The position numbers and the translations under genes were made by a program. Positions 36,794 to 51,212 of a DNA stretch of 64,000 nucleotides are shown here, piece by piece. Every line of letters begins with the position of its first letter. Positions within the stretch are counted from its first letter, which is position 1. Source of the DNA: Olsenella timonensis (GTDB lineage: Bacteria; Actinomycetota; Coriobacteriia; Coriobacteriales; Atopobiaceae); contig NZ_LT635455.1 of assembly GCF_900119915.1 (NCBI RefSeq), forward strand, positions 248,001 to 312,000, given 5' to 3'. The notes beneath the pieces were generated by a model. That model saw only the letters and a list, made by a program, of their open reading frames with translations. It was not told the origin of the DNA and made no database searches.

Positions 36794-38077
36794 GTGTCGT
36801 CCAAGAAGACCATCAGAGTGGCCGAGCTCTTTGCGGGTGTCGGTGGGTTTAGGCTGGGGCTTGAGGGGTATCACAACCCCGATGAGCCTGACATGGAGTT
36901 ACCTGCCGCGGGTCCTTTCAAGACCGTTTGGGCCAACCAGTGGGAGCCACCTGGAACAGAGGCCAAGCAGTTCGCGGCGCGTTGCTATCGCGCTCGCTTT
37001 GGCGAGAAGTCCGTTGTGAATGAGGACATTCACGAGGTTCTCGACAAGTTCGAGCGCGGCGAGATGGACATTCCCAACGTGGACATGGTGGTGGGGGGCT
37101 TCCCGTGCCAGGATTACTCCGTTGCCAAGCCTCTTTCCCAGGCAGGCGGCATCGAGGGCAAGAAGGGCGTCCTTTGGTGGGACATCTATCGGTTTCTCAA
37201 GCTGAAGAAGACCCCTCGCTACGTCCTGCTTGAAAACGTTGACCGTCTACTCAAAAGTCCCGCTTCGCAGCGAGGCCGCGACTTCGCAATCATCCTGTCT
37301 TGCCTTAATGACCTTGGGTACTCGGTTGAGTGGCGCGTCGTGAACAGCGCGGAGTATGGGTTCCCGCAGCGTCGCAAGCGCACGTATATTCTTGCGTACC
37401 TGACGGGGGAGGAATGGGATCTCGACGCTCGGATTTCCCAGGGACTGATGGCTCGGGCATTTCCGATTGTCGCGCCTGAAGTCGAGATGATTCAGCATGT
37501 GGAAATCCCTGCTGACCCCTATATTGCGACCCGTGACTTCAACAAGACCGGAAAGGCCTCTCCCTTCATGGACACGGGCGTCATGCAGGACGGTCACGTT
37601 GCAACCTGCAAGGTGACCGAGGCGTATGAGGGCTCTCGACGCGTGCTTGGGGATGTCCTTGTCGACGAGTCCGACGTGCCGGATGAGTTCTTCATTGAGC
37701 CGTCGCAGCTCCCCAAATGGGAGTATCTCAAAGGCTCGAAGAGCGAGGACCGTGTCAACAAAAAGACGGGGTTCACGTACAAGTATTCCGAGGGATCGAT
37801 GGCGTTTCCTGATGCGCTTGACCGACCCTCTCGTACGATTCTTACCGGCGAGGGGGGCCGGGGTGCCTCTCGATTCAAGCATGTCATCAAAACCGAGGAC
37901 GGACGATACCGTAGGCTTGTTCCGGACGAGCTCGATCAGCTCCAGGGCTTTCCCCGGGGATGGACAGATACCGGAATGACTGATGGGCAGCGTGCGTTTT
38001 GCATGGGAAATGCCCTAGTGGTTGGCGTGCCGCATGCAATAGGGAGGCTAATCGCCGAATTCGAAGAAAAGTGCTAA
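36794..38077 (+). CDS. DNA (cytosine-5)-methyltransferase, partner of the Sau3AI-like enzyme
   Basis: A 427-residue m5C methylase. Motif I is VAELFAGVGGFRLGLEG, motif IV GGFPCQDYSVA with the catalytic Cys, motif VI VLLENVDRLL, motif VIII PQRRKRTYILA, and motif X near the end (CMGNALVVGVP). The target recognition region lies between about 235 and 370. It should methylate the same GATC-like site as the upstream endonuclease and protect host DNA. The start is GTG at 36794 with CGGAGA upstream. Its stop shares bases with the stop of the convergent GmrSD gene. Confidence 0.92.
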   Translation: MSSKKTIRVAELFAGVGGFRLGLEGYHNPDEPDMELPAAGPFKTVWANQWEPPGTEAKQFAARCYRARFGEKSVVNEDIHEVLDKFERGEMDIPNVDMVVGGFPCQDYSVAKPLSQAGGIEGKKGVLWWDIYRFLKLKKTPRYVLLENVDRLLKSPASQRGRDFAIILSCLNDLGYSVEWRVVNSAEYGFPQRRKRTYILAYLTGEEWDLDARISQGLMARAFPIVAPEVEMIQHVEIPADPYIATRDFNKTGKASPFMDTGVMQDGHVATCKVTEAYEGSRRVLGDVLVDESDVPDEFFIEPSQLPKWEYLKGSKSEDRVNKKTGFTYKYSEGSMAFPDALDRPSRTILTGEGGRGASRFKHVIKTEDGRYRRLVPDELDQLQGFPRGWTDTGMTDGQRAFCMGNALVVGVPHAIGRLIAEFEEKC

Positions 38078-39879
38078 GTGGCGCAGCTCTGCTCCTTTTT
38101 CCATATTACAGGAGCCCACACAGAGAATAATCTTGCTCGTTCGAGTACCTGAGTATGGGTAAACTCGGTGGGGTAGTCGGTTAGGAGCTCCTTGATAAGG
38201 TAGAAGGTGTCCGCCGGTCGTCCATAGTCATGAACATGGGTTGACCCGTATTCGTAGATGTGCTTCTTCTCTGCATAGTTTTTGTTGCTGGCAGCGCTGT
38301 TGTCCGATTTAAAAATCAATGCCATATTTCCGATAGAATTGATGTAATCCTCTCGATAGCTGTCTAGGACGACGGAGTCTGGGACGTTGTCTTTTCCGTA
38401 CCAATCAACATAGTTAATCCTTCGTGGAATAATGTGTTCGAGAGTCAGATTCCTTGGAACCTGATTGCCATCTCCGCTTTTGATTCGACAAAAGCGCTCT
38501 AGCTCTTCAAGCAAATAATGGGCAAAGCCGGTATTTGTTGTACTAAATTCTGAAAAGTCATTCCTAAAGATTTCGTCATCTTCCATTCGACTAATTATGT
38601 AGTCGCAGACATTCTGACACGATTTTTCCCTGATGATACTAATCATCTTAGAAAACTCTGTATCCAGCGTATTAGTTGGTTTTCCGCAAACGCTGAAGCG
38701 AACAGTGTAGTTCAACAGTATTCTGGCTACTTTATAGAACTCCGAACTGTCAATATGATATCGCTTTGCAGCGGAATAAAGGGGTACATAGATTTGTTCC
38801 TGACCGAGGCCTCCAATCATTTGTAATAGGTGGTCGGTTTTCGGAAGACCGGAAGAATTGGAGGAAGGATCTCGTAGGGTGCCATAAGTTCTGATTGCAG
38901 AGTAAAGGTCCGCCTTTAGGCCTCCGAAGGACTGGTAGCCCTCATTGGCCAATTCCTTGAACTTAGACGGTAGTTGGACCTTGTTGAAGCGCTTGCCCTC
39001 GCGATCAAAAAAGAGGGTGATGAAGAAGTGCAGTAGCTGGTCGTCTTTGCCGCCGACCAGCGCATAGAGTTCTTGCCACGATGAGGCTCCGTCAGCATTG
39101 TTTTCAGCCGCCTTGGAAAGAAAAATGCTTCTAATGCGATCGACAGCGGTCAGGTTAAGCCCTTTGCCATTTAATGATTCAAAAACCTGGAACTCATTCA
39201 TGCTTTCTTTGCAATGGATGTCAACAACTTGGACACGGTTCTGAATCGTATTGCAGAGCGCCTTGTATCGGTTCAGGCGATTATCAGGTTCAGTGTGCCG
39301 AACCCATTCGCGAACGCAGTCTTTGTAGGTAGAAAAAGCCAATCGCATGTTTTTAACTGCTTTAGATTTGGGGTTAGGAGAGTCACAGAGATTTAGCTCC
39401 AGAACAGTCTGGTAGTAGTATTTTCCAGAATTCTCTTTTAGGAATAGTCTGGGAGTCGCACCCAATCCTTCGTCAGCATCCTCATCATTAAATAGCAACT
39501 TAAACAGTTCATTATCAATAAGTTTTTTATTGATAGTGTCCAGTGAGCTGTCCTCGGAAAGCGTTGTTCGAATTGCGGCAACAAGCAGCGAAATCGATGT
39601 CAGACGCTGCTGACCATCGAGGAGCTGTGACACCTCATCAGGATTAAGATTGAATTCCGCTGGTTTAATTGGCGCAAGTACGGAATCTTGGGGCTGATAG
39701 TCAGAGGTAACTAGGGCACCAAGAAAATGCTTCTGCTTCTTTTGTCCGACCAGTTCAACAATATCGTTCCATAGTGTTTGGTTCTCGGTTTTCCCCCAGG
39801 AGTATTCGCGCTGATAGTCAGGAATTATGAAGTGGTTTTGAGCAGACAGCAGTGTGCCGATATTAATGAAATTGTCCAT
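38074..39879 (-). CDS. GmrSD-type modification-dependent restriction enzyme (DUF262-DUF1524)
   Basis: A 601-residue protein. The N-terminal DUF262 part has IPDYQREYSWGK and SQLLDGQQRLTSI, the NTP-dependent ParB-like GmrS motifs. The C-terminal DUF1524 part has LTLEHIIPRRI and the SIGNMALIFKSDNSAASNKN segment, the HNH-type nuclease of GmrD. Fusions like this restrict modified phage DNA. Base composition is clearly AT-richer than neighbouring genes, so it was probably acquired recently. It converges on the methylase gene, with the stop codons overlapping. The ATG at 39879 follows GGAACGGG. Confidence 0.88.
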   Translation of the reverse strand: MDNFINIGTLLSAQNHFIIPDYQREYSWGKTENQTLWNDIVELVGQKKQKHFLGALVTSDYQPQDSVLAPIKPAEFNLNPDEVSQLLDGQQRLTSISLLVAAIRTTLSEDSSLDTINKKLIDNELFKLLFNDEDADEGLGATPRLFLKENSGKYYYQTVLELNLCDSPNPKSKAVKNMRLAFSTYKDCVREWVRHTEPDNRLNRYKALCNTIQNRVQVVDIHCKESMNEFQVFESLNGKGLNLTAVDRIRSIFLSKAAENNADGASSWQELYALVGGKDDQLLHFFITLFFDREGKRFNKVQLPSKFKELANEGYQSFGGLKADLYSAIRTYGTLRDPSSNSSGLPKTDHLLQMIGGLGQEQIYVPLYSAAKRYHIDSSEFYKVARILLNYTVRFSVCGKPTNTLDTEFSKMISIIREKSCQNVCDYIISRMEDDEIFRNDFSEFSTTNTGFAHYLLEELERFCRIKSGDGNQVPRNLTLEHIIPRRINYVDWYGKDNVPDSVVLDSYREDYINSIGNMALIFKSDNSAASNKNYAEKKHIYEYGSTHVHDYGRPADTFYLIKELLTDYPTEFTHTQVLERARLFSVWAPVIWKKEQSCAT

Positions 39880-40261
39880 CGCCCGTTCCCGTCTGTAACG
39901 TGACTTGACATAGAGGCAGGTTACGCCACTCTTCATTCAAATTGGCTAAAGGTTCAGTGAGTGTCAGAAACAATGGGACGAATGGATGGCGGATATGCCT
40001 TCAATGGCCGATTACTTTTCTTCGAGACATTGGGGTTGTGGCAAACGATTGCAGAGAATTCCGAGTGAATGTCTTTGCCCTGCCATCTCATAAAGAGCCA
40101 AGTTCTTTTTTTATACGATGTTTATTCGGCGCAGCTACTTACGAATAGGTTTCGAAGGTGGGTGACACAAGAAAGGCCCGGAAACAATGATGCAAACGGA
40201 GCCCAGGTCGCTTGCGGAGCTTGCTACACTTGGAGTTGCTGATCGCGAGAAAGGACCCGCC
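39880..40261. other. AT-rich intergenic stretch
   Basis: About 380 bases between the GmrSD promoter side and the ArsC-like gene. A T-run (TTCTTTTTTTATACG near 40105) and low GC suggest the edge of the transferred block. No credible gene is seen. Confidence 0.4.
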
Positions 40262-40624
40262 ATGGCTGACGTGCTGTTTGTTGAGTATCCGAAGTGCAGT
40301 ACCTGCAAGCGCGCGAAGGCGTGGCTTGATGCGCACGGCGTCTCTTACACGGACCGCCACATCGTCGAGGACAACCCGACGGCCGAGGAGCTCGCCGCCT
40401 GGCAGGCTCGCTCCGGCCTGCCCGTGCGCCGCTTCTTCAACACGAGCGGGCGCCTCTACCGAGAGCGCAACGTTAAGGCTCTTCTCGACGCCGGTATGGC
40501 GGACGCCGACGCATTCGCGCTACTCGCCGAGGACGGCATGCTGGTCAAGCGGCCGATCGTGGTCGGGGACGACTTCGTGCTCGTGGGCTTTCGCGAGGCC
40601 GAGTGGGAGGCTGCGCTGCTGTAG
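40262..40624 (+). CDS. ArsC/Spx-family thioredoxin-like protein
   Basis: A 120-residue thioredoxin-fold protein. The N-terminal VEYPKCSTCKRAKAWLDAHG contains a Cys-x-x-Cys motif as in Spx/MgsR and the ArsC-like family YffB. It may be an arsenate reductase-like enzyme or a redox regulator of RNA polymerase; sequence alone does not decide. AGAAAGGA precedes the ATG. It starts the block of chromosomal genes after the restriction island. Confidence 0.82.
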   Translation: MADVLFVEYPKCSTCKRAKAWLDAHGVSYTDRHIVEDNPTAEELAAWQARSGLPVRRFFNTSGRLYRERNVKALLDAGMADADAFALLAEDGMLVKRPIVVGDDFVLVGFREAEWEAALL

Positions 40625-40837
40625 CCCGCTGTCGCGACGACGGTCCTCTAGTTGCGCCAGAATCACAAATCGGGGTCCGGGGACGGGCCCCGTTTTGTTG
40701 TCGGTGCCGTTTACCTGCGGATTTTATCGAAAGTGCTGCACAGTTCTAGTTGCCTCTTAGTTATCAAACCGGCTTGGGGCGGCTTCTGCGCGGGACCCGT
40801 GGCATACTGGGCGAGAGGAAACAGAAGGGGAGGGGTC

Positions 40838-41476
40838 ATGCTGACGCGCGAGTTCTGCGCTGAGAACATGGAGCTTGTGCCGGCGGCGGTCGCCGCGGGA
40901 GCCGCGCGCGTCGAGCTCTGCGACAACCTGTCGGTTGGCGGGACCACGCCCAGCTACGGGGTCATTCGTGCTGCCGTTGCCCTCGCTGGCGAGAGGGGCG
41001 TGGGCGTGATGTGCATGATCCGCCCGCGCGGCGGCGGCTTCGAGTACACGCCGGACGAGGCGGCCATGATGCGCGACGACCTGGCCATGGCCAAGCGCCT
41101 GGGCGTCACCGGCGTGGTCTTTGGCTGCCTGCGGGACGGACATCTCGACCGCGCGCTCACCTCCGAGCTTGTGGAGCTCGCGGATGGCGTCGACGTGACC
41201 TTCCACATGGCATTCGACGCGCTGCCGGCAGACGAGCAGCTCGGCGCAATCGACTGGCTCGCCGGGCAGGGCGTGTCGCGCATCCTCACGCATGGCGGTC
41301 CCGCGGGCACGCCGATCGAGGACAACCTCGGCCGTCTGCGCGCCTACGTCGATCGCGCGGCCGGACGCGTCACCATCCTCCCCGGAGGGGGCATCACCTG
41401 GGAGAATGCCGAGCGCATTGCCTCCGAGCTGGGCGTCTGCGAGGTTCATGGCACCAAGATCGTGAGGCTCGCGTAA
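40838..41476 (+). CDS. cutC: CutC family protein
   Basis: A 212-residue CutC TIM-barrel protein. RVELCDNLSVGGTTPSYGVI, MIRPRGGGFEYT, VTFHMAFDALP and LTHGGPAGTPIED are the family signatures. It was first linked to copper tolerance; the biochemical activity is not firmly known. GGGGAGGGG precedes the ATG. Its stop overlaps the start of the next gene (TAATG), so the genes form an operon. Confidence 0.92.
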   Translation: MLTREFCAENMELVPAAVAAGAARVELCDNLSVGGTTPSYGVIRAAVALAGERGVGVMCMIRPRGGGFEYTPDEAAMMRDDLAMAKRLGVTGVVFGCLRDGHLDRALTSELVELADGVDVTFHMAFDALPADEQLGAIDWLAGQGVSRILTHGGPAGTPIEDNLGRLRAYVDRAAGRVTILPGGGITWENAERIASELGVCEVHGTKIVRLA

Positions 41477-42162
41477 TGGCGCGGACCCGGCAGGCGGGGC
41501 GCTTCGCGCAGGTTCGTGACGACCTGGGCTGCCACCTGGGCAAGGGGGAGCTCCTCGCCGCGCTGTCTGCCCCAGACGCGCACGTCACCAACACCGCGTT
41601 CTCCGACCTGGAGCTCGCGGGTGCCTCCGCCGACGGCACGGTCTTCGAGAACGTCGTCTTCCGCGGGTGCGCCTTCGAGCGCGTCAACCTCTCCAACTGC
41701 ACGTTTACCGACGTGCTCTTCTCGGGCTGTCGCTTCGTGCGCTGCGACATGGGGCGCAGCTGGCTCAACCGCGTGGACTTCAGGTCGTGCTCGGCGCCCG
41801 GGCTCTCCTTCCTGAAGAGCCGCCTCACCGGCGTGTCCTTCTCGGACAGCCAGCTCGCCTACGCGGACCTCTCGGAGGCGACGGTCGAGCAGCTCGTTGC
41901 CAGCGAGACCAAGCTCACCGAGGCGAGCTTCCACGCCACCCGGCTGCGTCGCGTGTCGCTGCGCGGCTGCGACCTCGCGCGATCGACGTTCTTCCGTACC
42001 AGCCTCTCGGGCGTGGACCTCTCCACGTGCGACATCTCCGGGCTGCGCATCTCCTCGGACCTGCGAGAACTGCGCGGCGCCGTCATCGACCCCGAGCAGG
42101 CGGCGGAGCTCATCGGGCTTCTCGGCATCAAGATCAAGGAGGAGGACGACACATGGCGATAA
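41476..42162 (+). CDS. Pentapeptide-repeat protein
   Basis: A 228-residue protein with at least twenty pentapeptide-like units from about residue 35 to 195 (for example FENVVFRGCAFERVNLSNC, SFLKSRLTGVSFSDSQLAYA). Such proteins form a right-handed quadrilateral beta helix and often mimic DNA or act as scaffolds. No other domain is seen. It overlaps CutC at its start and the thioesterase gene by 10 bases at its end. A role as a gyrase-protecting factor is possible but not shown. Confidence 0.85.
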   Translation: MARTRQAGRFAQVRDDLGCHLGKGELLAALSAPDAHVTNTAFSDLELAGASADGTVFENVVFRGCAFERVNLSNCTFTDVLFSGCRFVRCDMGRSWLNRVDFRSCSAPGLSFLKSRLTGVSFSDSQLAYADLSEATVEQLVASETKLTEASFHATRLRRVSLRGCDLARSTFFRTSLSGVDLSTCDISGLRISSDLRELRGAVIDPEQAAELIGLLGIKIKEEDDTWR

Positions 42163-42569
42163 TCGACGAGAACGCCACCCTCGAGGAGGTGCAGGCGGTC
42201 TTTAGGAACGACCGCTTCGCGACGGACGCCTGCGGCTGCCGCGTGGTGGAGGCCGCGCGCGGGCACGCGGTCACCGAGTTTGACATCACGCCGGGGCACC
42301 GCAACGAGAAGGGCGGCGTGATGGGCGGCGCCATCTTCACGGTGGCCGACCTTGCCTTTGCCGTGGCGTCCAACGTGGGCGAGAGCGTGACCGTCTCGGT
42401 CGCGAGCTCGATCGAGTTCATGAGCGCGGCCAAGGGCGAGAGGCTCATCGCCACGGCGGACGTCGACAAGAACGGTCGCACGCTGGCGTTCTACACCTGC
42501 TACGTGACCGACGAGCTGGGCACGCCCGTCGCGCGCGCCACGCAGACCTGCATGCACCTGCAGAAGTAG
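42153..42569 (+). CDS. PaaI-family thioesterase
   Basis: A 138-residue hot-dog-fold thioesterase. ITPGHRNEKGGVMGGAIFTV is the PaaI/YbgC-like catalytic region, followed by ADLAFAVASN, and SSIEFMSAAKGERL is the second conserved strand. It hydrolyses acyl- or aryl-CoA thioesters. GGAGGAGGAC precedes the ATG, inside the end of the pentapeptide gene. It ends 7 bases before the stop of the convergent phosphofructokinase gene. Confidence 0.85.
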   Translation: MAIIDENATLEEVQAVFRNDRFATDACGCRVVEAARGHAVTEFDITPGHRNEKGGVMGGAIFTVADLAFAVASNVGESVTVSVASSIEFMSAAKGERLIATADVDKNGRTLAFYTCYVTDELGTPVARATQTCMHLQK

Positions 42570-42576
42570 GTGGGAG

Positions 42577-43770
42577 TCAGTCGAGAGACGCGAGCTCGAT
42601 GGGAATCCAGTCCACGAGCGGGCGGACATAGGTCAGCAGCTCCTCGGTGACGCCCATGCCGTCGTCGCTGATCCAGGTGCGGGGAACGTGCTTGACCTGG
42701 TTGGCCACGGAGAGAACGTCCACGAGCTTGGTGCGGACCTCGTAGGGGTCGTCGCTCACGCGCTCCAGGGCGCACATCTTGGTGGTCTCGCCGGCGAGCG
42801 CCGCACGGACTCCGGCGCGCCCCAGCTCAAAGGCCTCGTCGAGGTCGACCTGACTGGCGACGTAGCTTGCGCAGCGCTGCAGCGTGGAGAGCTCGACGGC
42901 GCGCGTCTTGCAGTGGAGGTGCTCCTTGGCGAGCGCGGCGAGGTAGCGCGCGGCGCCCGAGAGGGCTGCCAGGTGGCCAAACTCGTCAACCCCCACGCCC
43001 TCGGCGAGGGCGGCCGCCTCGCAGACCAGGCGGCCGTCGGGGGTGCGCACGCCCTCGCTCACGCCCACCATCACGGTGTTCTTCTCGGCAAGCAGCCCTG
43101 CGATGCGCGCCAGCAGCGCGGCCTCGTCGAGCGGCGCCTCGGGCAGCAGGATGAGGTCGGGGTTGGCCAGCGCCGACGACGCGGCGAGCCAGCCGGCGTC
43201 GCGGCCCATGATCTCCACGAAGGTGACGCTCTTGAGGTCGTAGACGTTGGCGTCGCAGGCGATCTCGCGCATGGCGGTGGCCACGAAGCGAGCCGCGCAG
43301 CCGTAGCCGGGGGTGTGGTCGGTCTGCACGAGGTCGTTGTCGATGGTCTTGGGGACGCCGATGAAGCGGATCGGGCTTCCATACTCGCGGCCGTAGGCGC
43401 CGAGCTTGGCGATCGTGTCCATGGAGTCGTTGCCGCCGATGTAGAGGACGGCGTCGGCGCCGACCTCGCGGAAGCGGTCAAAGAGACGCTGGTAGGTCGC
43501 CTCGTCGTCTGCGGGGTCGGGAAGTTTGTAGCGACAGCTGCCGAGCCAGCTCGAGGGGGTGTCGCGCAGGAGCTCGAGGTCGCGCGGGTCGCCGAAGGAG
43601 CGACTCAGCTCGACGGAGCGCCCGTCGAGAAACCCCTGGATGCCGTAGCGCATGCCCACGACGCGCGCGCCGGCGTCCATGCCCGCGCTGATCACGCCCG
43701 CGAGGCTCGCGTTGATGGCGGAGGTGGGCCCGCCCGACTGTCCGACCAGCACGCACTTCTCGTCCGTCAT
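42577..43770 (-). CDS. Pyrophosphate-dependent 6-phosphofructokinase
   Basis: A 397-residue enzyme of the PFK family. LYIGGNDSMDT has Asp where ATP-PFKs have Gly, and PKTIDNDL has the Lys that favours pyrophosphate, so it is assigned to the PPi-dependent group. VGQSGGPTSAINASL and EIMGRDAGWL are the phosphate and fructose-6-phosphate contacts. It converts fructose 6-phosphate and PPi reversibly into fructose 1,6-bisphosphate. Start ATG 43770 has GGAGGAAGC upstream. Enolase lies just upstream on the same strand, so both may form a glycolytic operon. Confidence 0.9.
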   Translation of the reverse strand: MTDEKCVLVGQSGGPTSAINASLAGVISAGMDAGARVVGMRYGIQGFLDGRSVELSRSFGDPRDLELLRDTPSSWLGSCRYKLPDPADDEATYQRLFDRFREVGADAVLYIGGNDSMDTIAKLGAYGREYGSPIRFIGVPKTIDNDLVQTDHTPGYGCAARFVATAMREIACDANVYDLKSVTFVEIMGRDAGWLAASSALANPDLILLPEAPLDEAALLARIAGLLAEKNTVMVGVSEGVRTPDGRLVCEAAALAEGVGVDEFGHLAALSGAARYLAALAKEHLHCKTRAVELSTLQRCASYVASQVDLDEAFELGRAGVRAALAGETTKMCALERVSDDPYEVRTKLVDVLSVANQVKHVPRTWISDDGMGVTEELLTYVRPLVDWIPIELASLD

Positions 43771-43859
43771 GCTTCCTCCCGTTCGACGCCTCCCCCAAGC
43801 ATAGCGCAAGAGGTCGCCCCGGGCCCTGGCCCGGGGCGACGCACGGCGGGGGGAGTGGG

Positions 43860-45173
<1,314 letters not shown>

Positions 45174-45327
45174 CTAACTTTCTGCCATGAATAAGTATAC
45201 CCATTCTAACTTATCTCAGACGTCTGTGAGAAAAGCGACGGGCGTGTTTCGGAAGCCCGGGCGTTGCGATGCGCGAGTATACTCATGAGGTCAAGCGCGC
45301 GGCCATGCCGCAGGGAACGGAGGTACC

Positions 45328-46749
45328 ATGGGGGCATTCTTCGGCGCCGTCTCTCATCGTGACGTTGCACTCGACGTGTTCTTTGGCGTCGACTATCACT
45401 CTCACCTCGGAACGCGCCGTGCCGGCATGGTCACCTGCCGCGAGGGCGGCGGCTTCAACCGCCAGATCCACTCCATCGAGAACACGCCGTTCCGGACCAA
45501 GTTCGAGCATGACCTGCCCGGGCTCTCGGGCACCTGCGGCATGGGCTGCATCTCGGACAACGACCCGCAGCCGCTGCTCGTCCGCTCGCACCTGGGGCTC
45601 TACGCCATCTCGACGGTGGGCGCCATCGCGAACCAGGACGCGCTCGTCGCGCGCTTCGAGGAGGAGGGCCACCAGTTCATGGCGATGGGCTCGGGCGGCG
45701 TCAACGTCAACGAGCTCGTCGCCGCGCTGATTAACACCCAGGGGAGCATCGTCGAGGGCATCCGCTACGCGCAGGACGAGGTCGAGGGGTCGCTCACGCT
45801 GCTCATCATGACCGAGGGTGGGGAGCTCGTCGCCGCGCGTGACAAGATGGGCCGCCTGCCCGTCCTCATCGGCCATGACGACGACGGCTACTGCGTGACC
45901 TTCGAGTCGTTCGCCTACGGGAAGCTCGGCTACGTGGACGAGTACGAGCTCGGCTCGGCGGAGATCGTGCGCATCACGGCCGACGGCTACGAGACCCTCT
46001 CCCCGGCGCGCGACGAGATGCGCATCTGCGCGTTCCTGTGGGTCTACTACGGCTACCCCAACTCGACCTACGAGGGCGTCAACGTGGAGTGCATGCGCTA
46101 CCGCAACGGCGCCATCATGGCCCGCGACGAGCGCGAGGCAGGCCTGCTCCCCGAGGTGGACTTCGTCGCCGGCATGCCCGACTCGGGCCTGCCGCACGGC
46201 ATCGGCTACGCCAACGAGTCCGGGGTGCCGCTCGCCCGCCCCTTCGTCAAGTACACCCCCACGTGGCCGCGCTCGTTCATGCCGGCGAACCAGGAGGTCC
46301 GCAACCGCGTCGCCAAGATGAAGCAGATCCCGGTGCCCGAGCTCATCCGCGACAAGCGCCTGCTGCTCGTCGACGACTCCATCGTCCGCGGCACGCAGAT
46401 GCGCGAGACGATCGACTTCCTGCGCGACACCGGCGCGGCCGAGGTCCACATGCGCCCGGCCTGCCCGCCGATCATGTACGGCTGCAAGTTCCTCTCGTTC
46501 TCGCGCAGCCGCTCCGAGTACGAGCTCATCGCACGGCGCAAGGTCCGCGAGCTCGAGGGCGACGAGGGCGAGAAGCACCTCGACGAGTACGCCGACGGCC
46601 GCAGCGAGCGCGGTCGCTGCCTCCTGCGCTCCATCTGCGAGGAGATGGGCTTCGACTCCCTGGAGTACCAGAGCCTCGACGGCATGCTCGAGGCCATCGG
46701 CATCGACCGCAGGAAGGTCTGTACCTACTGCTGGAACGGCCGCGACTAG
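45328..46749 (+). CDS. Amidophosphoribosyltransferase-like protein lacking the N-terminal Cys
   Basis: A 473-residue PurF-like protein. The C-terminal phosphoribosyltransferase domain is intact, with the PRPP motif LLLVDDSIVRGTQM (around residue 347) and PDSGLPHGIGYANESG. The N-terminal class II glutaminase domain is also recognisable (DYHSHLGTRRAGM, GTCGMGCISD). It starts with Met-Gly, not Met-Cys, so the nucleophile that releases ammonia from glutamine is missing. It is probably a paralogue of PurF with another or ammonia-dependent activity. AGGGAACGGAGG precedes the ATG, so the start is secure. Confidence 0.85.
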   Translation: MGAFFGAVSHRDVALDVFFGVDYHSHLGTRRAGMVTCREGGGFNRQIHSIENTPFRTKFEHDLPGLSGTCGMGCISDNDPQPLLVRSHLGLYAISTVGAIANQDALVARFEEEGHQFMAMGSGGVNVNELVAALINTQGSIVEGIRYAQDEVEGSLTLLIMTEGGELVAARDKMGRLPVLIGHDDDGYCVTFESFAYGKLGYVDEYELGSAEIVRITADGYETLSPARDEMRICAFLWVYYGYPNSTYEGVNVECMRYRNGAIMARDEREAGLLPEVDFVAGMPDSGLPHGIGYANESGVPLARPFVKYTPTWPRSFMPANQEVRNRVAKMKQIPVPELIRDKRLLLVDDSIVRGTQMRETIDFLRDTGAAEVHMRPACPPIMYGCKFLSFSRSRSEYELIARRKVRELEGDEGEKHLDEYADGRSERGRCLLRSICEEMGFDSLEYQSLDGMLEAIGIDRRKVCTYCWNGRD

Positions 46750-46771
46750 CCCGGGGCGCTCTGCCGCGCCC

Positions 46772-47653
46772 CTAGCAGTTGCCCACGTAGACGTGGGAGA
46801 GGTGACGCCGCGCGACGTCGGCGAGGCGGCGCACGACGCCCACGGGGGTGGGCGGGCGGTCCGTCATGCGCCAGCGCGGGAAGAAGCGCGTCACGTGGTA
46901 GGTGACGTCTCCGAGGCCGGAGAGCCACTCGGCCATGGCGCCGACCTCGTCGTCGGAGTCGTTCATGCCGGGCACGACGAGGGTGGTCACCTCGAGATGG
47001 CAGCGCGGGTCGGCGGAGAGCCGCTCGATCGTGGCGCGCACGGCCCCGAGCGAACCGGGTGCCCCGCCGCAGGCGTCGTAGAGCTCGTCCGAGAAGCCCT
47101 TGAGGTCGATGTTCGCCGCGTCGAGAAGCCCCTCGAGCCCGTCGACGACGGCGGGCCCCACGCACCCGTTGGACACGAGGACGTTGACGAGGCCCGCCTC
47201 ATGGGCGAGCCGCGCGCAGTCGCGGACGTACTCCCAGCACACGAGCGGCTCGTTGTAGGTATAGGCGATCCCGGAGACGCGGGCGTCCCGGCGGCGCGCG
47301 TCGAGCGCCAGCGCAACCAGCCCCTCGGGCGAGATCTCGCGCCATCGGGCGTCCTTCTCGCCCGCCTGCGATATCTCCCAGTTCTGGCAGAAGGGGCAGC
47401 GCAGGTTGCAGCCGTAGCTGCCTGCCGAGAGCACGTACGTGCCGGGCATGAAGCGGGCGAGGGGCTTCTTCTCGATCGGGTCGAGCGCGAGCGACGTGAG
47501 GCGCCCGTAGCCCTCCGGGACGGCCACGCCGTCGAGGTTGCGCCTGGCGCCGCAGGAGCCGAGCGCGCCGGGCGACAGGCGGCAGCGGCGCGGGCACACG
47601 TCGCAGACGGCGGCGGGGCCTGCGATGCCGCGGCCCCTCTCGTCCGCGCTCAC
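46772..47653 (-). CDS. amrS: AmmeMemoRadiSam system radical SAM enzyme
   Basis: A 293-residue radical SAM protein. SYGCNLRCPFCQNW gives the Cys82-x3-Cys86-x2-Cys89 cluster motif. Extra N-terminal cysteines (CDVCPRRC, then GSCGARR) and YTYNEPLVCWEY, DLKGFSDELY are typical of the AmrS family that partners MEMO1 and AMMECR1. It starts with GTG at 47653, overlapping the stop of the MEMO1-AMMECR1 gene by four bases, so the two are coupled. The reaction is not known; a modified tRNA or small-molecule target has been proposed for the family. Confidence 0.88.
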   Translation of the reverse strand: MSADERGRGIAGPAAVCDVCPRRCRLSPGALGSCGARRNLDGVAVPEGYGRLTSLALDPIEKKPLARFMPGTYVLSAGSYGCNLRCPFCQNWEISQAGEKDARWREISPEGLVALALDARRRDARVSGIAYTYNEPLVCWEYVRDCARLAHEAGLVNVLVSNGCVGPAVVDGLEGLLDAANIDLKGFSDELYDACGGAPGSLGAVRATIERLSADPRCHLEVTTLVVPGMNDSDDEVGAMAEWLSGLGDVTYHVTRFFPRWRMTDRPPTPVGVVRRLADVARRHLSHVYVGNC

Positions 47654-49080
47654 GCGTGACGCTCCACGACGAAGCGCTCCACGGCGACGCCCTCCTCCGA
47701 GAGTGCGATGCCGCCCTTGCGCGCCGCGATGCGCAACTGCTCGTCGACGGTGTCGATGCCGTCGAGGTCGGGGAGCAGCAGGCCGCGGCGGCCGTCGGGC
47801 GCGCTCACAATCACGCCGTAGCGCCTGGGGTCCAGCCCCTCGCGGACCTCCACGGGCTCCGGGTCGCCGAGGACGTCGACGTCGTAGACGAGCTCGGGGA
47901 GCTCGTCGGGCGTGACGGGAGGGAAGCGCGGGTCGTGGAGGCCGGCGGACACCGCGTTTGCCGCGATTTCCTCGGCGAGGTTCCCGCGCGTGGGCGCGAT
48001 GGTTCCGATGCAGCCTCTGAGCTGCCCGTTCTTCTTGATCGAGACGAACGTGCCGGCACGACGGGAGAGCAGCTCCTCGGGGAGGTCGTCGGGCAGGGGC
48101 AGCCTGCGGCCGGTGCGCACGCGACGCTCGAGCGCGGCACGGGCGAGCGAGACGAGGCAGTCCTCCTCGCCGCGCCGGCGCTCCATGTCCGCGGCGTGCC
48201 ATGCCTCGTACTTCTCGCCGAAGGCCCGGTCGGGGTCGGAGCCCGCCTCCCCTGCGGGCGAGAAGCACGCGACGCCGTAGCCCACGCCGAAGGGTCCCTC
48301 GTAGGAGAGCAGCTCTGCCGAGACAGGAGTGCGATCCAGGGCGCCCGCCATGATCTGGAAGGACCGCAGACCGCACTCCGCCGCGCGCTCGCAGAGGCCG
48401 GGGTCCGCGGAGAGCAGCGGGAGGAAGTCCCCGCTCGAGAACGCGTCGCAGGCCAGACGGTCGAAGACGGGGCCGTCGGGCGAGAAGCCGTATGGCCCGT
48501 CCTCTGCCAGCTTGTGCGAGAGGTCGCCGGATGCGACGTAGGCCACCCGGCGGCCGAGATGCTCCGCGGCGCGCGCCACGAGCTGGCCCATGCGGTAGTG
48601 CTGAAGCGGGGAGAGGCCGGAGACCCCCATGCGGACCACGCGATACGGCTCGACCTCGTCACCCGCGGCGCGGCGCTCGTCGTAGGCCTCCTGGAGGAAG
48701 TGGAGCGGCACGAGCACGCCCCAGTCAAGGCCGGGGTCTCGCTCGCCCCTGGTTCCGGCGGGGAGGCCCTCCTTGCGGGCGAGACGGCAGAGCTCGGCGA
48801 CGAGCTCCTCGTCGTAGGTGACGCGCGACCCGTCCGCGGCGTCCCCGAACCGCGCGAACGTTCCCCGGGCGCCTGACCCGGGGGCTATGTGCAGGTAGTC
48901 GAGGTACATCGCGGCGTGCGGGCTGGAGACCACGACCGTGTCGGGGCCGAGCGCCGCAATGCGCCTCGCGACCTCGCGATAGACGTCTGCGGTGGAGCGG
49001 ACCTCGCGCTCGCGCCCATGCCCGACGCCGGGGACGATGAGGGGCGGGTGCGGGACGGCGACTGCGATGACGACGGACAT
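47650..49080 (-). CDS. MEMO1-AMMECR1 fusion (AmmeMemoRadiSam proteins B and A)
   Basis: A 476-residue fusion. Residues about 1-265 are a MEMO1/LigB-type domain (VAVPHPPLIVPGVGHGRE, VVSSPHAAMYLDY, YVASGDLSHKL with metal-binding His residues). Residues about 300-476 are an AMMECR1 domain (KKNGQLRGCIGTIAPTRGN, NAVSAGLHDPRFPPVTPDEL). Together with the coupled radical SAM gene they form the complete AmmeMemoRadiSam set, whose role is unknown. GGGAGGTGG precedes the ATG. Confidence 0.9.
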   Translation of the reverse strand: MSVVIAVAVPHPPLIVPGVGHGREREVRSTADVYREVARRIAALGPDTVVVSSPHAAMYLDYLHIAPGSGARGTFARFGDAADGSRVTYDEELVAELCRLARKEGLPAGTRGERDPGLDWGVLVPLHFLQEAYDERRAAGDEVEPYRVVRMGVSGLSPLQHYRMGQLVARAAEHLGRRVAYVASGDLSHKLAEDGPYGFSPDGPVFDRLACDAFSSGDFLPLLSADPGLCERAAECGLRSFQIMAGALDRTPVSAELLSYEGPFGVGYGVACFSPAGEAGSDPDRAFGEKYEAWHAADMERRRGEEDCLVSLARAALERRVRTGRRLPLPDDLPEELLSRRAGTFVSIKKNGQLRGCIGTIAPTRGNLAEEIAANAVSAGLHDPRFPPVTPDELPELVYDVDVLGDPEPVEVREGLDPRRYGVIVSAPDGRRGLLLPDLDGIDTVDEQLRIAARKGGIALSEEGVAVERFVVERHA

Positions 49081-49189
49081 GCGACCACCTCCCGGTGCCC
49101 GACGTGACGATGTCGTCATGGTCGGTGGCCCGTCGGGCACGGCTAGTAGTATTGTTCCCAGAAGACGCTCCGAGAGAAGGGGAGATCGC

Positions 49190-49897
49190 ATGGCGGCAGT
49201 GCTTGCGGCGCTGGGCGTGATCTCGATTGCGTACGGCCTCCTCATGGCGGTGCTCTATCCCGCGGGCGGGTTCTTCCTCGTGTGGGTCGTCCTGGGCGCG
49301 GCGCTGATCGCGGCGTGGCGCATCCCGCGCGTCCGGATGGCGACGTGTGTCGTCTGCCTGGTCGGACTTCTCGCCGTGGGTGCGCTCTCCGCGCTCATAG
49401 GGACCGCGGCGGCCAAGACGCCCCCTGCGGGCCTGGACGACCTCGTGGTGCTGGGTGCCGGCCTTCGGCCCGACGGCACGCCGAGCGAGGCCCTGCGCTA
49501 TCGCCTGGACGCGGCGCTCGCCTACCTGGAGGAGAATCCCGAGACCGACTGCGTCGTCTCGGGCGGCCAGGGTTTCGGCGAGGTGCGCACCGAGGCAGAC
49601 GCCATGGCGGAGTACCTGGTCGAGCACGGGCTTGACGAGGGTCGCATCACGAAGGAGGAGCGCTCGAGCACGACGGCGGAGAACCTGCGCTTCTCCTCCG
49701 CGCTCCTTGAGCCGGGCGCCGAGGTGGGCGTCGTCACCAACGACTTCCACCTCTACCGGGCGCTTCGCATCGCCGAGAGGAACGGGCTGCCCGGCGCCCA
49801 TGGCCTGGCTGCGCCGTCCAACCCGCTCTATCTACCCCAGTCCATGCTGCGCGAGTGTGCCGCGGTGGTGAAGGACGCCCTCTTCGGCAACATGTAA
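49190..49897 (+). CDS. YdcF-like DUF218 membrane protein
   Basis: A 235-residue protein with two or three N-terminal hydrophobic segments (about 1-70), then a DUF218 domain: DDLVVLGAGLRPDGTPSEAL, CVVSGGQGFGEVRTEADAM, SSTTAENLRFSS and VTNDFHLYRALRIA. DUF218 proteins (YdcF, SanA, ElyC) act on or bind cell-envelope components. AGAAGGGGAG precedes the ATG. It is divergent from the MEMO1 gene. Confidence 0.85.
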   Translation: MAAVLAALGVISIAYGLLMAVLYPAGGFFLVWVVLGAALIAAWRIPRVRMATCVVCLVGLLAVGALSALIGTAAAKTPPAGLDDLVVLGAGLRPDGTPSEALRYRLDAALAYLEENPETDCVVSGGQGFGEVRTEADAMAEYLVEHGLDEGRITKEERSSTTAENLRFSSALLEPGAEVGVVTNDFHLYRALRIAERNGLPGAHGLAAPSNPLYLPQSMLRECAAVVKDALFGNM

Positions 49898-49930
49898 GGG
49901 GGACGCGCTGGTTTTAGCCGACGGAGAGGG

Positions 49931-49959
49931 ACAGGCCCCGGAACCGTGCCGGGGCCTGT
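49931..49959. terminator. GC-rich hairpin between convergent genes
   Basis: ACAGGCCCCGG (49931-49941) pairs with CCGGGGCCTGT (49949-49959). No U-tract on either side, so the role as terminator is likely but not certain. It lies between the DUF218 and isocitrate dehydrogenase genes. Confidence 0.55.
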
Positions 49960-49997
49960 CGGAACTCCCTGGGAAAAGAGCGCACTTCCCTTAGCCG

Positions 49998-51212
49998 CTA
50001 CGCGGTCGCCTCTGCGTCGAGGGTCTCGCGGACGGCAAGAATGAACTCGCGTGTGCCGAGCGCCTGCGGGCTCTCGAGCGTGGTGATGCGCGCGAGGTCG
50101 CCGGTCATCCTGCCGGACTCGATCGTGTGGACGGTGGCCGCCTCGAGGCGGTCGGCAAAGTCCACGAGCTCGGGAAGCTCGTCGAGCTCGCCGCGCTTGC
50201 GCAGGGCGCCGGTCCAGGCGAAGATCGTGGCGACGGAGTTGGTCGAGGTGGGCTCGCCCTTGAGATGCTTGTAGTAGTGGCGCTGGACGGTCCCGTGCGC
50301 CGCCTCGTACTCGAAGTAGCCGTGCGGGCTGACGAGCACCGAGGTCATCATGGCGAGGCTGCCGAACGCCGAGGAGAGCATGTCGCTCATGACGTCTCCG
50401 TCGTAGTTCTTGCACGCCCAGATGAAGCCGCCCTCGGACTTGACCACGCGTGCCACGGCGTCGTCGATGAGCGTGTAGAAGTACTCGATGCCCGCCGCCT
50501 CGAACCGCTCGCGGTACTCGGTGTCGTAGATCTCCGCAAAGACGTCCTTGAAGCGGTGGTCGTAGGTCTTGGAGATGGTGTCCTTGGTGGCGAACCACAG
50601 GTCCTGGCCCGTTGAGAGGGCGTACTCGAAGCAGCTGCGCGCAAAGCTCTCGATGGAGGCGTCGAGGTTGTGCTGGCCCTGGACCACGCCTGGTCCGTCG
50701 AAGACGTGGACGAGCTCGCGGCGCTCGGTGCCGTCGGCGGCGGTGTAGACGAGCTCCACCTTGCCGGGGCCGTCCACGCGCATCTCGGCGTTCTTGTAGA
50801 CGTCGCCATAGGCGTGGCGCGCGATGGTGATTGGTCGCTTCCAGGTGGTCACCGTAGGCTCGATGCCCTTGACCACGATGGGCGCGCGGAAGACCGTGCC
50901 GTCGAGCAGCGCGCGGATGGTACCGTTGGGACTCTTCCACATCTGCTTGAGCCCGTACTCCTCCACGCGGGCGGCGTTGGGGGTGATGGTGGCGCACTTG
51001 ACGGCCACGCCCAGACGCTTGGTCGCCTCGGCGGAGTCCACGGTGACCTGGTCGTCGGTCCTGTCGCGGTTCTCGAGGCCGAGGTCGTAGTACTCGGTCT
51101 TGAGGTCGACGTACGGGCAGACGAGCTCGTCTTTGATGATCTGCCAGATGATGCGGGTCATCTCGTCGCCGTCCATCTCGACGAGCGGGGTCTTCATCGC
51201 TATCTTGGCCAT
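49998..51212 (-). CDS. icd: NADP-dependent isocitrate dehydrogenase
   Basis: A 404-residue enzyme of the eukaryotic-like class ([20 protein letters not shown] opening, [11 protein letters not shown] and [11 protein letters not shown] later). It converts isocitrate to 2-oxoglutarate in the partial citric acid cycle, providing NADPH and glutamate precursor. Length matches the class. ATG 51212 is preceded by GGGAGGAC. Its upstream region holds the four-copy repeat cluster at 51318-51543. Confidence 0.94.

Follow-up and report, generated by a model that had tools for sequence, protein, structure and literature searches.

A bacterial family of PurF-like proteins without a glutaminase site, proposed to aminate PRPP with free ammonia

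By standard teaching, the committed step of purine synthesis depends on glutamine. It is assigned to the canonical amidophosphoribosyltransferase PurF (TIGR01134), exemplified by the enzymes of Bacillus subtilis (1ao0, 1gph) and Escherichia coli (1ecf). Homologues lacking the N-terminal cysteine are known from archaea: the accessible part of Brown et al. (2011; PMC3261824) describes a crenarchaeal PurF' that accompanies a PurF in every Crenarchaeon examined there, and raises ammonia-dependent amination of phosphoribosyl pyrophosphate (PRPP) as an untested possibility for it. The same portion of that paper mentions a second PurF copy with Ser replacing Cys in Methanocorpusculum labreanum (Mlab_0150) and, citing Mei and Zalkin (1989), E. 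coli PurF in which replacement of Cys1 by Ala or Ser abolished the use of glutamine while ammonia was still used. According to the accessible parts of two further papers, ammonia-dependent formation of phosphoribosylamine (PRA) in yeast depends on the ammonium in the medium (PMC12017579), and in Salmonella no PurF-independent route had yet given enough PRA for the purine need (PMC3485032).

Here we describe a bacterial family, termed X, starting from a gene in a stretch of 64,000 nucleotides of the Olsenella timonensis genome (the window). Like canonical PurF, X has both fold domains, the PRPP motif and the four cysteines at Fe-S positions, the last in common, as sequence positions, with the Fe-S type PurF of B. 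subtilis, and some Clostridia carry it within the pur operon. Judged by the published description in the accessible part of Brown et al. (2011; PMC3261824), X resembles crenarchaeal PurF' in being a PurF homologue without the N-terminal cysteine and with purine genes nearby, but it is bacterial and has Gly or Ser at a site that is Ala or Val in many PurF' proteins. Within that same description, PurF' is always accompanied by a normal PurF, whereas searches of 70 X-bearing Clostridia turned up no normal PurF in 21, although the window genome has one; Mlab_0150 is a recent duplication of its own PurF, whereas X is an old, separate clade; and the glutaminase-dead Cys1 mutants are engineered point changes, whereas X is a family found in nature whose site has been remodelled. 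A literature search, for which subscription journals lay mostly out of reach, found neither a bacterial X-like family nor a replacement of PurF, and the archaeal PurF' proposal was the one relevant item. What appears to be new is the family in bacteria, together with its spread and the recurring lack of PurF; the proposed function is anticipated, because the ammonia proposal for PurF' is already in print (PMC3261824, accessible part).

The Olsenella timonensis gene and the residues of its family

The features of the gene are collected in Table 1. The initial annotation had described a PurF paralogue that starts Met-Gly without the catalytic cysteine, has an intact PRPP motif and is preceded by a strong ribosome-binding site, and each of these points was borne out. 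The translated open reading frame begins MGAFFGAV, the alignment places Gly2 (initiator Met = 1) on Cys1 of the B. subtilis and canonical enzymes, and Gly or Ser stands there in 145/145 relatives; the motif LLVDDSIVRGTQ is whole, and GGAGG lies 4 nt before the ATG. Since the accessible part of PMC3261824 reports PurF annotations with wrong starts (3/58 archaeal cases), a wrong start codon, a frameshift or an assembly error might be suspected of hiding the cysteine. Upstream of the ATG, however, the frame reads stop-GQARGHAAGNGGT, with no Cys in the 13 codons, so no alternative start can expose one. The same type of N-terminus in 145 relatives likewise rules out such an artefact, to which we assign a negligible chance.

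Table 1. Features of the gene for X in the window (positions counted from the first nucleotide of the window).
Feature	Position	Strand	Basis
Gene for X (glutaminase-dead PurF-like protein, proposed PRPP aminase, 473 aa)	45328..46749	+	ORF, TIGR01134, AF2 model
GGAGG ribosome-binding site, 4 nt 5' of ATG	45319..45323	+	sequence
In-frame stop, 13 codons 5' of the X ATG; no Cys codon between	45286..45288	+	translation
Gly2 codon, position of PurF catalytic Cys1	45331..45333	+	alignments
Class II glutaminase-like domain without catalytic residues (approximate boundary, residue 230)	45328..46017	+	residue table
Phosphoribosyltransferase domain and C-terminal Fe-S segment (approximate boundary)	46018..46749	+	Pfam, alignments
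PRPP-binding motif LLVDDSIVRGTQ	46363..46398	+	residue table, 145 X and 25 PurF
Cys234, Fe-S ligand position	46027..46029	+	Cys in 145/145 X
Cys386, Fe-S ligand position	46483..46485	+	Cys in 145/145 X
Cys465-x-x-Cys468, Fe-S ligand positions	46720..46731	+	Cys in 145/145 X

In profile searches, Pfam GATase_7 matched at 33.5 bits, Pribosyltran stayed below threshold, and, unlike canonical PurF, the window protein scored below the cut-off of the NCBIfam purF equivalog TIGR01134 (179.9 against 350 bits). Among the matches listed, its closest organism-named relatives are from an uncultured Olsenella (94% identity) and Thermophilibacter mediterraneus (92%). A second purF encoding the cysteine, which the initial annotation had proposed to look for, is present in the same genome, a single contig of 2,176,737 bp. 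This canonical PurF (MSENLHEECGVFG...), with the expected Cys, is encoded at C1:1952313-1953641 (-) beside purM in its own pur region, and is 32% identical to the window protein.

The residue comparison covered 145 unique members of X, gathered partly via family motifs and partly via whole-protein search, and 25 canonical PurF proteins. Three of 148 rows first labelled X proved to be canonical PurF (L084, L103, L089) and were placed with PurF for both the tree and the residue table, and two wrong-frame PurF rows (L023, L119) were left out of the alignment. At the nucleophile position, X has Gly in 140 members, Ser in 5 and Cys in none. The differences from canonical PurF extend well beyond this position: all 145 members lack the Arg73-Tyr74 loop and have Leu for the Arg of the HRG motif, the oxyanion Asn is replaced by Val, Ile, Thr, Ser or Leu in all 145 (the adjoining Gly is kept in 142), and Asp127 has become Gly or Ser in 122. 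We take Arg73, the oxyanion Asn-Gly and Asp127 to be glutamine-site residues of PurF. In place of the glutamine site, X carries residues of its own (DYHSHLGT, with H24 in 143/145). The glutaminase site is thus gone in every X member collected (145/145), and the initial annotation, which named the missing cysteine, understated the loss.

The PRPP-binding and Fe-S-position residues, in contrast, are retained. Residues D349, D350, S351, R354 and G355 of the PRPP motif are invariant in 145/145 X and 25/25 PurF, and K308, R315 and K332 are kept in 145/145 X. So too are the four cysteines at positions 234, 386, 465 and 468, presumably the Fe-S cluster ligands of B. subtilis-type PurF. There are two departures in this region: Q357 occurs in 145/145 X where 25/25 PurF have T, and the PRPP flexible loop, K-N-R-Y in PurF, reads K-Y-T-P-T-W-P-R in the window protein, so that the chemistry of X could differ from that of PurF.

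An AlphaFold2 model of X built from 45 family sequences (pLDDT 89.5, pTM 0.88) matches the PurF structures of B. subtilis, E. coli and Arabidopsis over both domains, with TM-scores of 0.80-0.83 normalised by the query; its sole run of at least three residues with pLDDT below 50 (311-315) falls around the PRPP flexible loop. For six pairs of close relatives of the window protein, dN/dS was 0.06-0.23 in the N-terminal half and 0.06-0.25 in the C-terminal half. The mean ratio of N- to C-terminal identity was 0.886 for X (144 names) and 0.896 for PurF (26 names), counts that are keyed by name and so differ by one from those of the residue table (145, 25). Low dN/dS and the equal conservation of the halves indicate that the dead glutaminase half is kept and not decaying, and a decaying pseudogene is ruled out. 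In a quick tree with SH-aLRT as its only support measure (61 thinned X rows and 25 PurF rows), X and PurF were parted by one branch with a value of 100, and the Coriobacteriia X nested in a group that also holds Clostridia.

Distribution of X and genomes without a detectable normal PurF

Within the phylum sample, X was present in 15/198 genomes, 11 from the order of the window organism (71-100% identity) and 4 from one other family (40-42%). In the window's genus, 9/10 genomes have two PurF-like matches, and the remaining one (G524) has PurF only. X was also found, at E <= 1e-70, in 70 of 243 sampled genomes (completeness filter 95) from the class to which Frisingicoccus caecimuris belongs, which we treat as Clostridia. 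Four plasmid-collection records, from Peptoclostridium, Parabacteroides, Phocaeicola and Bacteroides, carry X, so that the Bacteroidota evidence consists of three records; two of the four closest plasmid-collection matches are annotated as amidophosphoribosyltransferase. A scan of genome contigs gave at least 592 stretches with an X-like match, at least 584 of them confirmed.

Two of the Bacteroidota 'plasmid' records contain genes that are usually chromosomal, rplU and rpmA in one (L114) and eno in the other (L115), and look like chromosome pieces. In the Peptoclostridium, Parabacteroides and Bacteroides records, pepT lies directly 3' of X (L113:8574-9800, L114:11464-13783, L115:13564-15904), and in the two Bacteroidota records gcvT comes next after pepT; a neighbour common to two phyla has no clear reason.

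A viral origin of X was considered and rejected. No relative of X was found in one scan of viral contigs, and the sole strong match in the phage collection, at 59% identity, lies on an unannotated human-faecal scaffold filed as 'Bacteriophage sp.' (L264, MT836108.1), which is probably bacterial DNA.

Canonical PurF was not found at E <= 1e-40 in 21 of the 70 X-bearing Clostridia (hereafter X-only) and is kept in the other 49. PurD was over the cut-off in 69 of the 70, the exception (G396) being one of the X-only genomes, which leaves PurD in 20/21 of these; PurM was over the cut-off in all 30 genomes tested, including all 21 X-only. The control consisted of 80 genomes from this sample that lack X: 63 had PurD over the cut-off, all 63 with canonical PurF, and a further 10 X-negative genomes all had PurF. 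The control was not entirely clean, as one X-negative genome (G245) combines a PurD piece below the cut-off with no PurF, and two others (G242, G268) have PurF without PurD. Among PurD-positive genomes, PurF was absent from 20/69 with X and from 0/63 without (Fisher p = 5.5e-7, a value that ignores relatedness). On the X tree the absence of PurF amounts to 12 changes of state, at least 7 of which are forced by well-supported branches; one X-only genome (G438) has a partial X match (residues 1-313) and was left out of this tree.

Other samples gave a similar picture. Six of 14 genomes reached via organism-named loci, Adlercreutzia equolifaciens DFI.6.87 (G199) among them, were X-only at E <= 0.001; apart from X, their matches score just 18-123 bits, lie in frames of 230-744 aa and appear to be relatives of glucosamine and asparagine synthases and one small phosphoribosyltransferase. 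In the window's order, 7/99 genomes had only X-like-scoring matches and no normal PurF was found in them; one of the seven (G066) has both PurD and PurM. The same two genes are present in a genome of the other family (G004) that has X and no second PurF-like match. A further one-contig genome of the window's order (G493) has a canonical PurF match at C1:2170454-2171209, covering model positions 190-432 in a 357-aa frame, apparently a PurF without the glutaminase half; an X-like match is also present there.

Several points bear on how these absences are read. The X-only set was defined at E <= 1e-40, and 17 of the 21 genomes contain 1-5 other, unlisted candidates weaker than this value; in the remaining four (G260, G303, G372, G449) X is the sole candidate in the genome. 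The PurF of a control, Bacteroides ihuae, was detected at E 0.001 and drops out at 1e-40, so the stricter threshold could overlook a divergent PurF of the Bacteroides kind, and some of the 21 could still contain a PurF that has diverged very far. Most genomes surveyed seem to be drafts. The absence in G367 is probably a gap, because its nearest relatives have PurF; in G402, the X-bearing contig comprises 1,671,491 bp of a 1.7 Mb genome (at least 95%), which makes a gap unlikely there. In a good share of the X-bearing genomes with both PurD and PurM, a normal PurF could not be detected.

These counts bear on the idea that X is a pseudoenzyme that regulates normal PurF or assembles with it. The two proteins are neighbours in the pur operon of G287 and G362, side by side in opposite orders, their coordinates adjoin in G201 and G207, and the window genome has both, all of which would suit a partnership. 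Such a partner, however, was not found in 21/70 X-bearing Clostridia and 7/99 genomes of the window's order, and the PRPP residues of X are invariant, so that we regard this role as very unlikely; in particular, X-only genomes that have PurD fit poorly with a role purely in regulating PurF.

Genomic context and the nitrogen donor

Gene names in the pur operons were assigned from sequence clusters, purV denoting an AICAR-transformylase-like gene. Six of the 21 X-only genomes (G224, G253, G276, G366, G396, G402) have X at the place of purF in their pur operon, as do five of the six X-only genomes from organism-named loci. The gene order is purE-(purC)-X-purM-purN-(purO)-purV-purD-purL, of which G396 shows only purE-X-purM-purN-purO. 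In 11 others of the 21 (G260, G303, G322, G290, G372, G331, G449, G409, G225, G252, G430) the slot is empty and X lies elsewhere: purE or purC is followed on contiguous DNA by purM, with 11-174 nt between the ORF bounds (an overlap in G260). The remaining four of the 21 (G219, G338, G367, G438) are counted in neither group. An expected link between residence in the operon and loss of PurF was not seen, PurF being absent from 6 of about 16 genomes with X in the operon and 15 of about 54 others; operon status was judged by hand, and a few contigs end too early to say.

In the Bacteroidota, in Peptoclostridium and in the window, X lies outside pur operons. Control of solo X by a riboswitch found no support: a search for purine-related riboswitches at gathering score gave none in seven solo-X loci, and a riboswitch search of window positions 40000-50000 gave one sub-threshold, unrelated match. 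Convergent with X in the window (46772-49245) are genes that encode a radical SAM protein and a protein with an AMMECR1/LigB domain, which we take to be an AmmeMemoRadiSam-type set. Elsewhere in the window (36794-39936), a C5 DNA methylase is encoded right next to a GmrSD-type restriction gene of the opposite strand, likely a restriction or defence pair.

The location of X in many genomes outside pur operons, and beside pepT in three records, is one of two grounds for supposing that X aminates PRPP with some other amine, or makes another product, and is no substitute for PurF; the altered flexible loop and the Gln in place of Thr in the PRPP motif (145/145) are the other. We consider this quite unlikely, given that X takes the purF slot in some genomes and that PurD, which needs PRA, is kept in 20/21 X-only Clostridia.

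Split glutaminase and synthase pairs such as CarA/CarB and PurQ/PurL are common. By analogy with such pairs elsewhere, X might be the synthase half of a two-protein amidotransferase, receiving ammonia by contact with a separate glutaminase (that of PurL, for example, or another of class I or II), for which its conserved N-terminal domain could be the docking surface. On the other side, there is no extra gene between purE and purL in the clearest X operons (G224, G253, G208), and even CarA was not found in G331 and G449. We therefore rate a two-protein arrangement as unlikely.

The carbamoyl phosphate genes were examined in 15 genomes, with a CarA threshold of E <= 1e-30. In G331 and G363, CarB immediately precedes X in the same orientation (about 30 and 15 bp apart, respectively); it lies 1.3 kb upstream with a small ORF between in G449, and within 3 kb of X in G384, G394 and G281. 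In G363, G384, G394 and G281 there is one CarA each, beside a second CarB elsewhere; in G331 and G449, both X-only, no CarA was found at this threshold and the sole CarB is the one near X. A glutaminase-less CarB near a glutaminase-dead PurF would fit the use of free ammonia by both. The loci L186:6092-9331, L212:5981-9211 and L195:4561-7797 show CarB, unaccompanied by CarA, upstream of X. An orphan CarB is found without X as well, in that the X-negative G213 has one CarB more than CarA, and neither CarA nor CarB was found in the X-only G402 and G066.

Taken together, we propose, with a probability of roughly three in four, that X is a PRPP aminase that uses free ammonia to convert PRPP into 5-phosphoribosylamine, and that its glutaminase domain is now non-catalytic and conserved for a structural or regulatory role. 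The initial annotation had left three readings side by side, namely free ammonia, another amine or a regulator. The first is now favoured, as the genome evidence (21/70 X-only, PurD in 20/21 of these, X in purF slots) points to an enzyme standing in for PurF. Points against the PRPP-aminase reading include the many genomes, that of the window among them, in which X accompanies a normal PurF. In the proposed mechanism, X would bind PRPP and the PRPP loop would close, free NH3 would enter via the former glutaminase side or from solvent, and the PRA formed would pass to PurD. For the window organism, with its normal PurF, we infer that X is a second, ammonia-using isozyme, which may offer another route under ammonia-rich conditions. 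Ammonia is high in the gut.

More broadly, and from genome comparison, we lean slightly towards the view that anaerobes across lineages begin purine synthesis glutamine-free, via an ammonia-using PRPP aminase that would have displaced PurF several times. G331 and G449 may likewise make carbamoyl phosphate via a CarB without CarA near X, so that both nucleotide pathways would start from free ammonia.

If the proposal is true, it would explain genomes in which purF seems to be missing and correct the records that name X an amidophosphoribosyltransferase. Organisms with X would be expected to be insensitive to glutamine analogues at the PRPP amination step, and the archaeal PurF' proposal would become testable in culturable bacteria. 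A natural, glutamine-independent replacement at the committed purine step would change the predicted nitrogen flow and auxotrophies of these bacteria.
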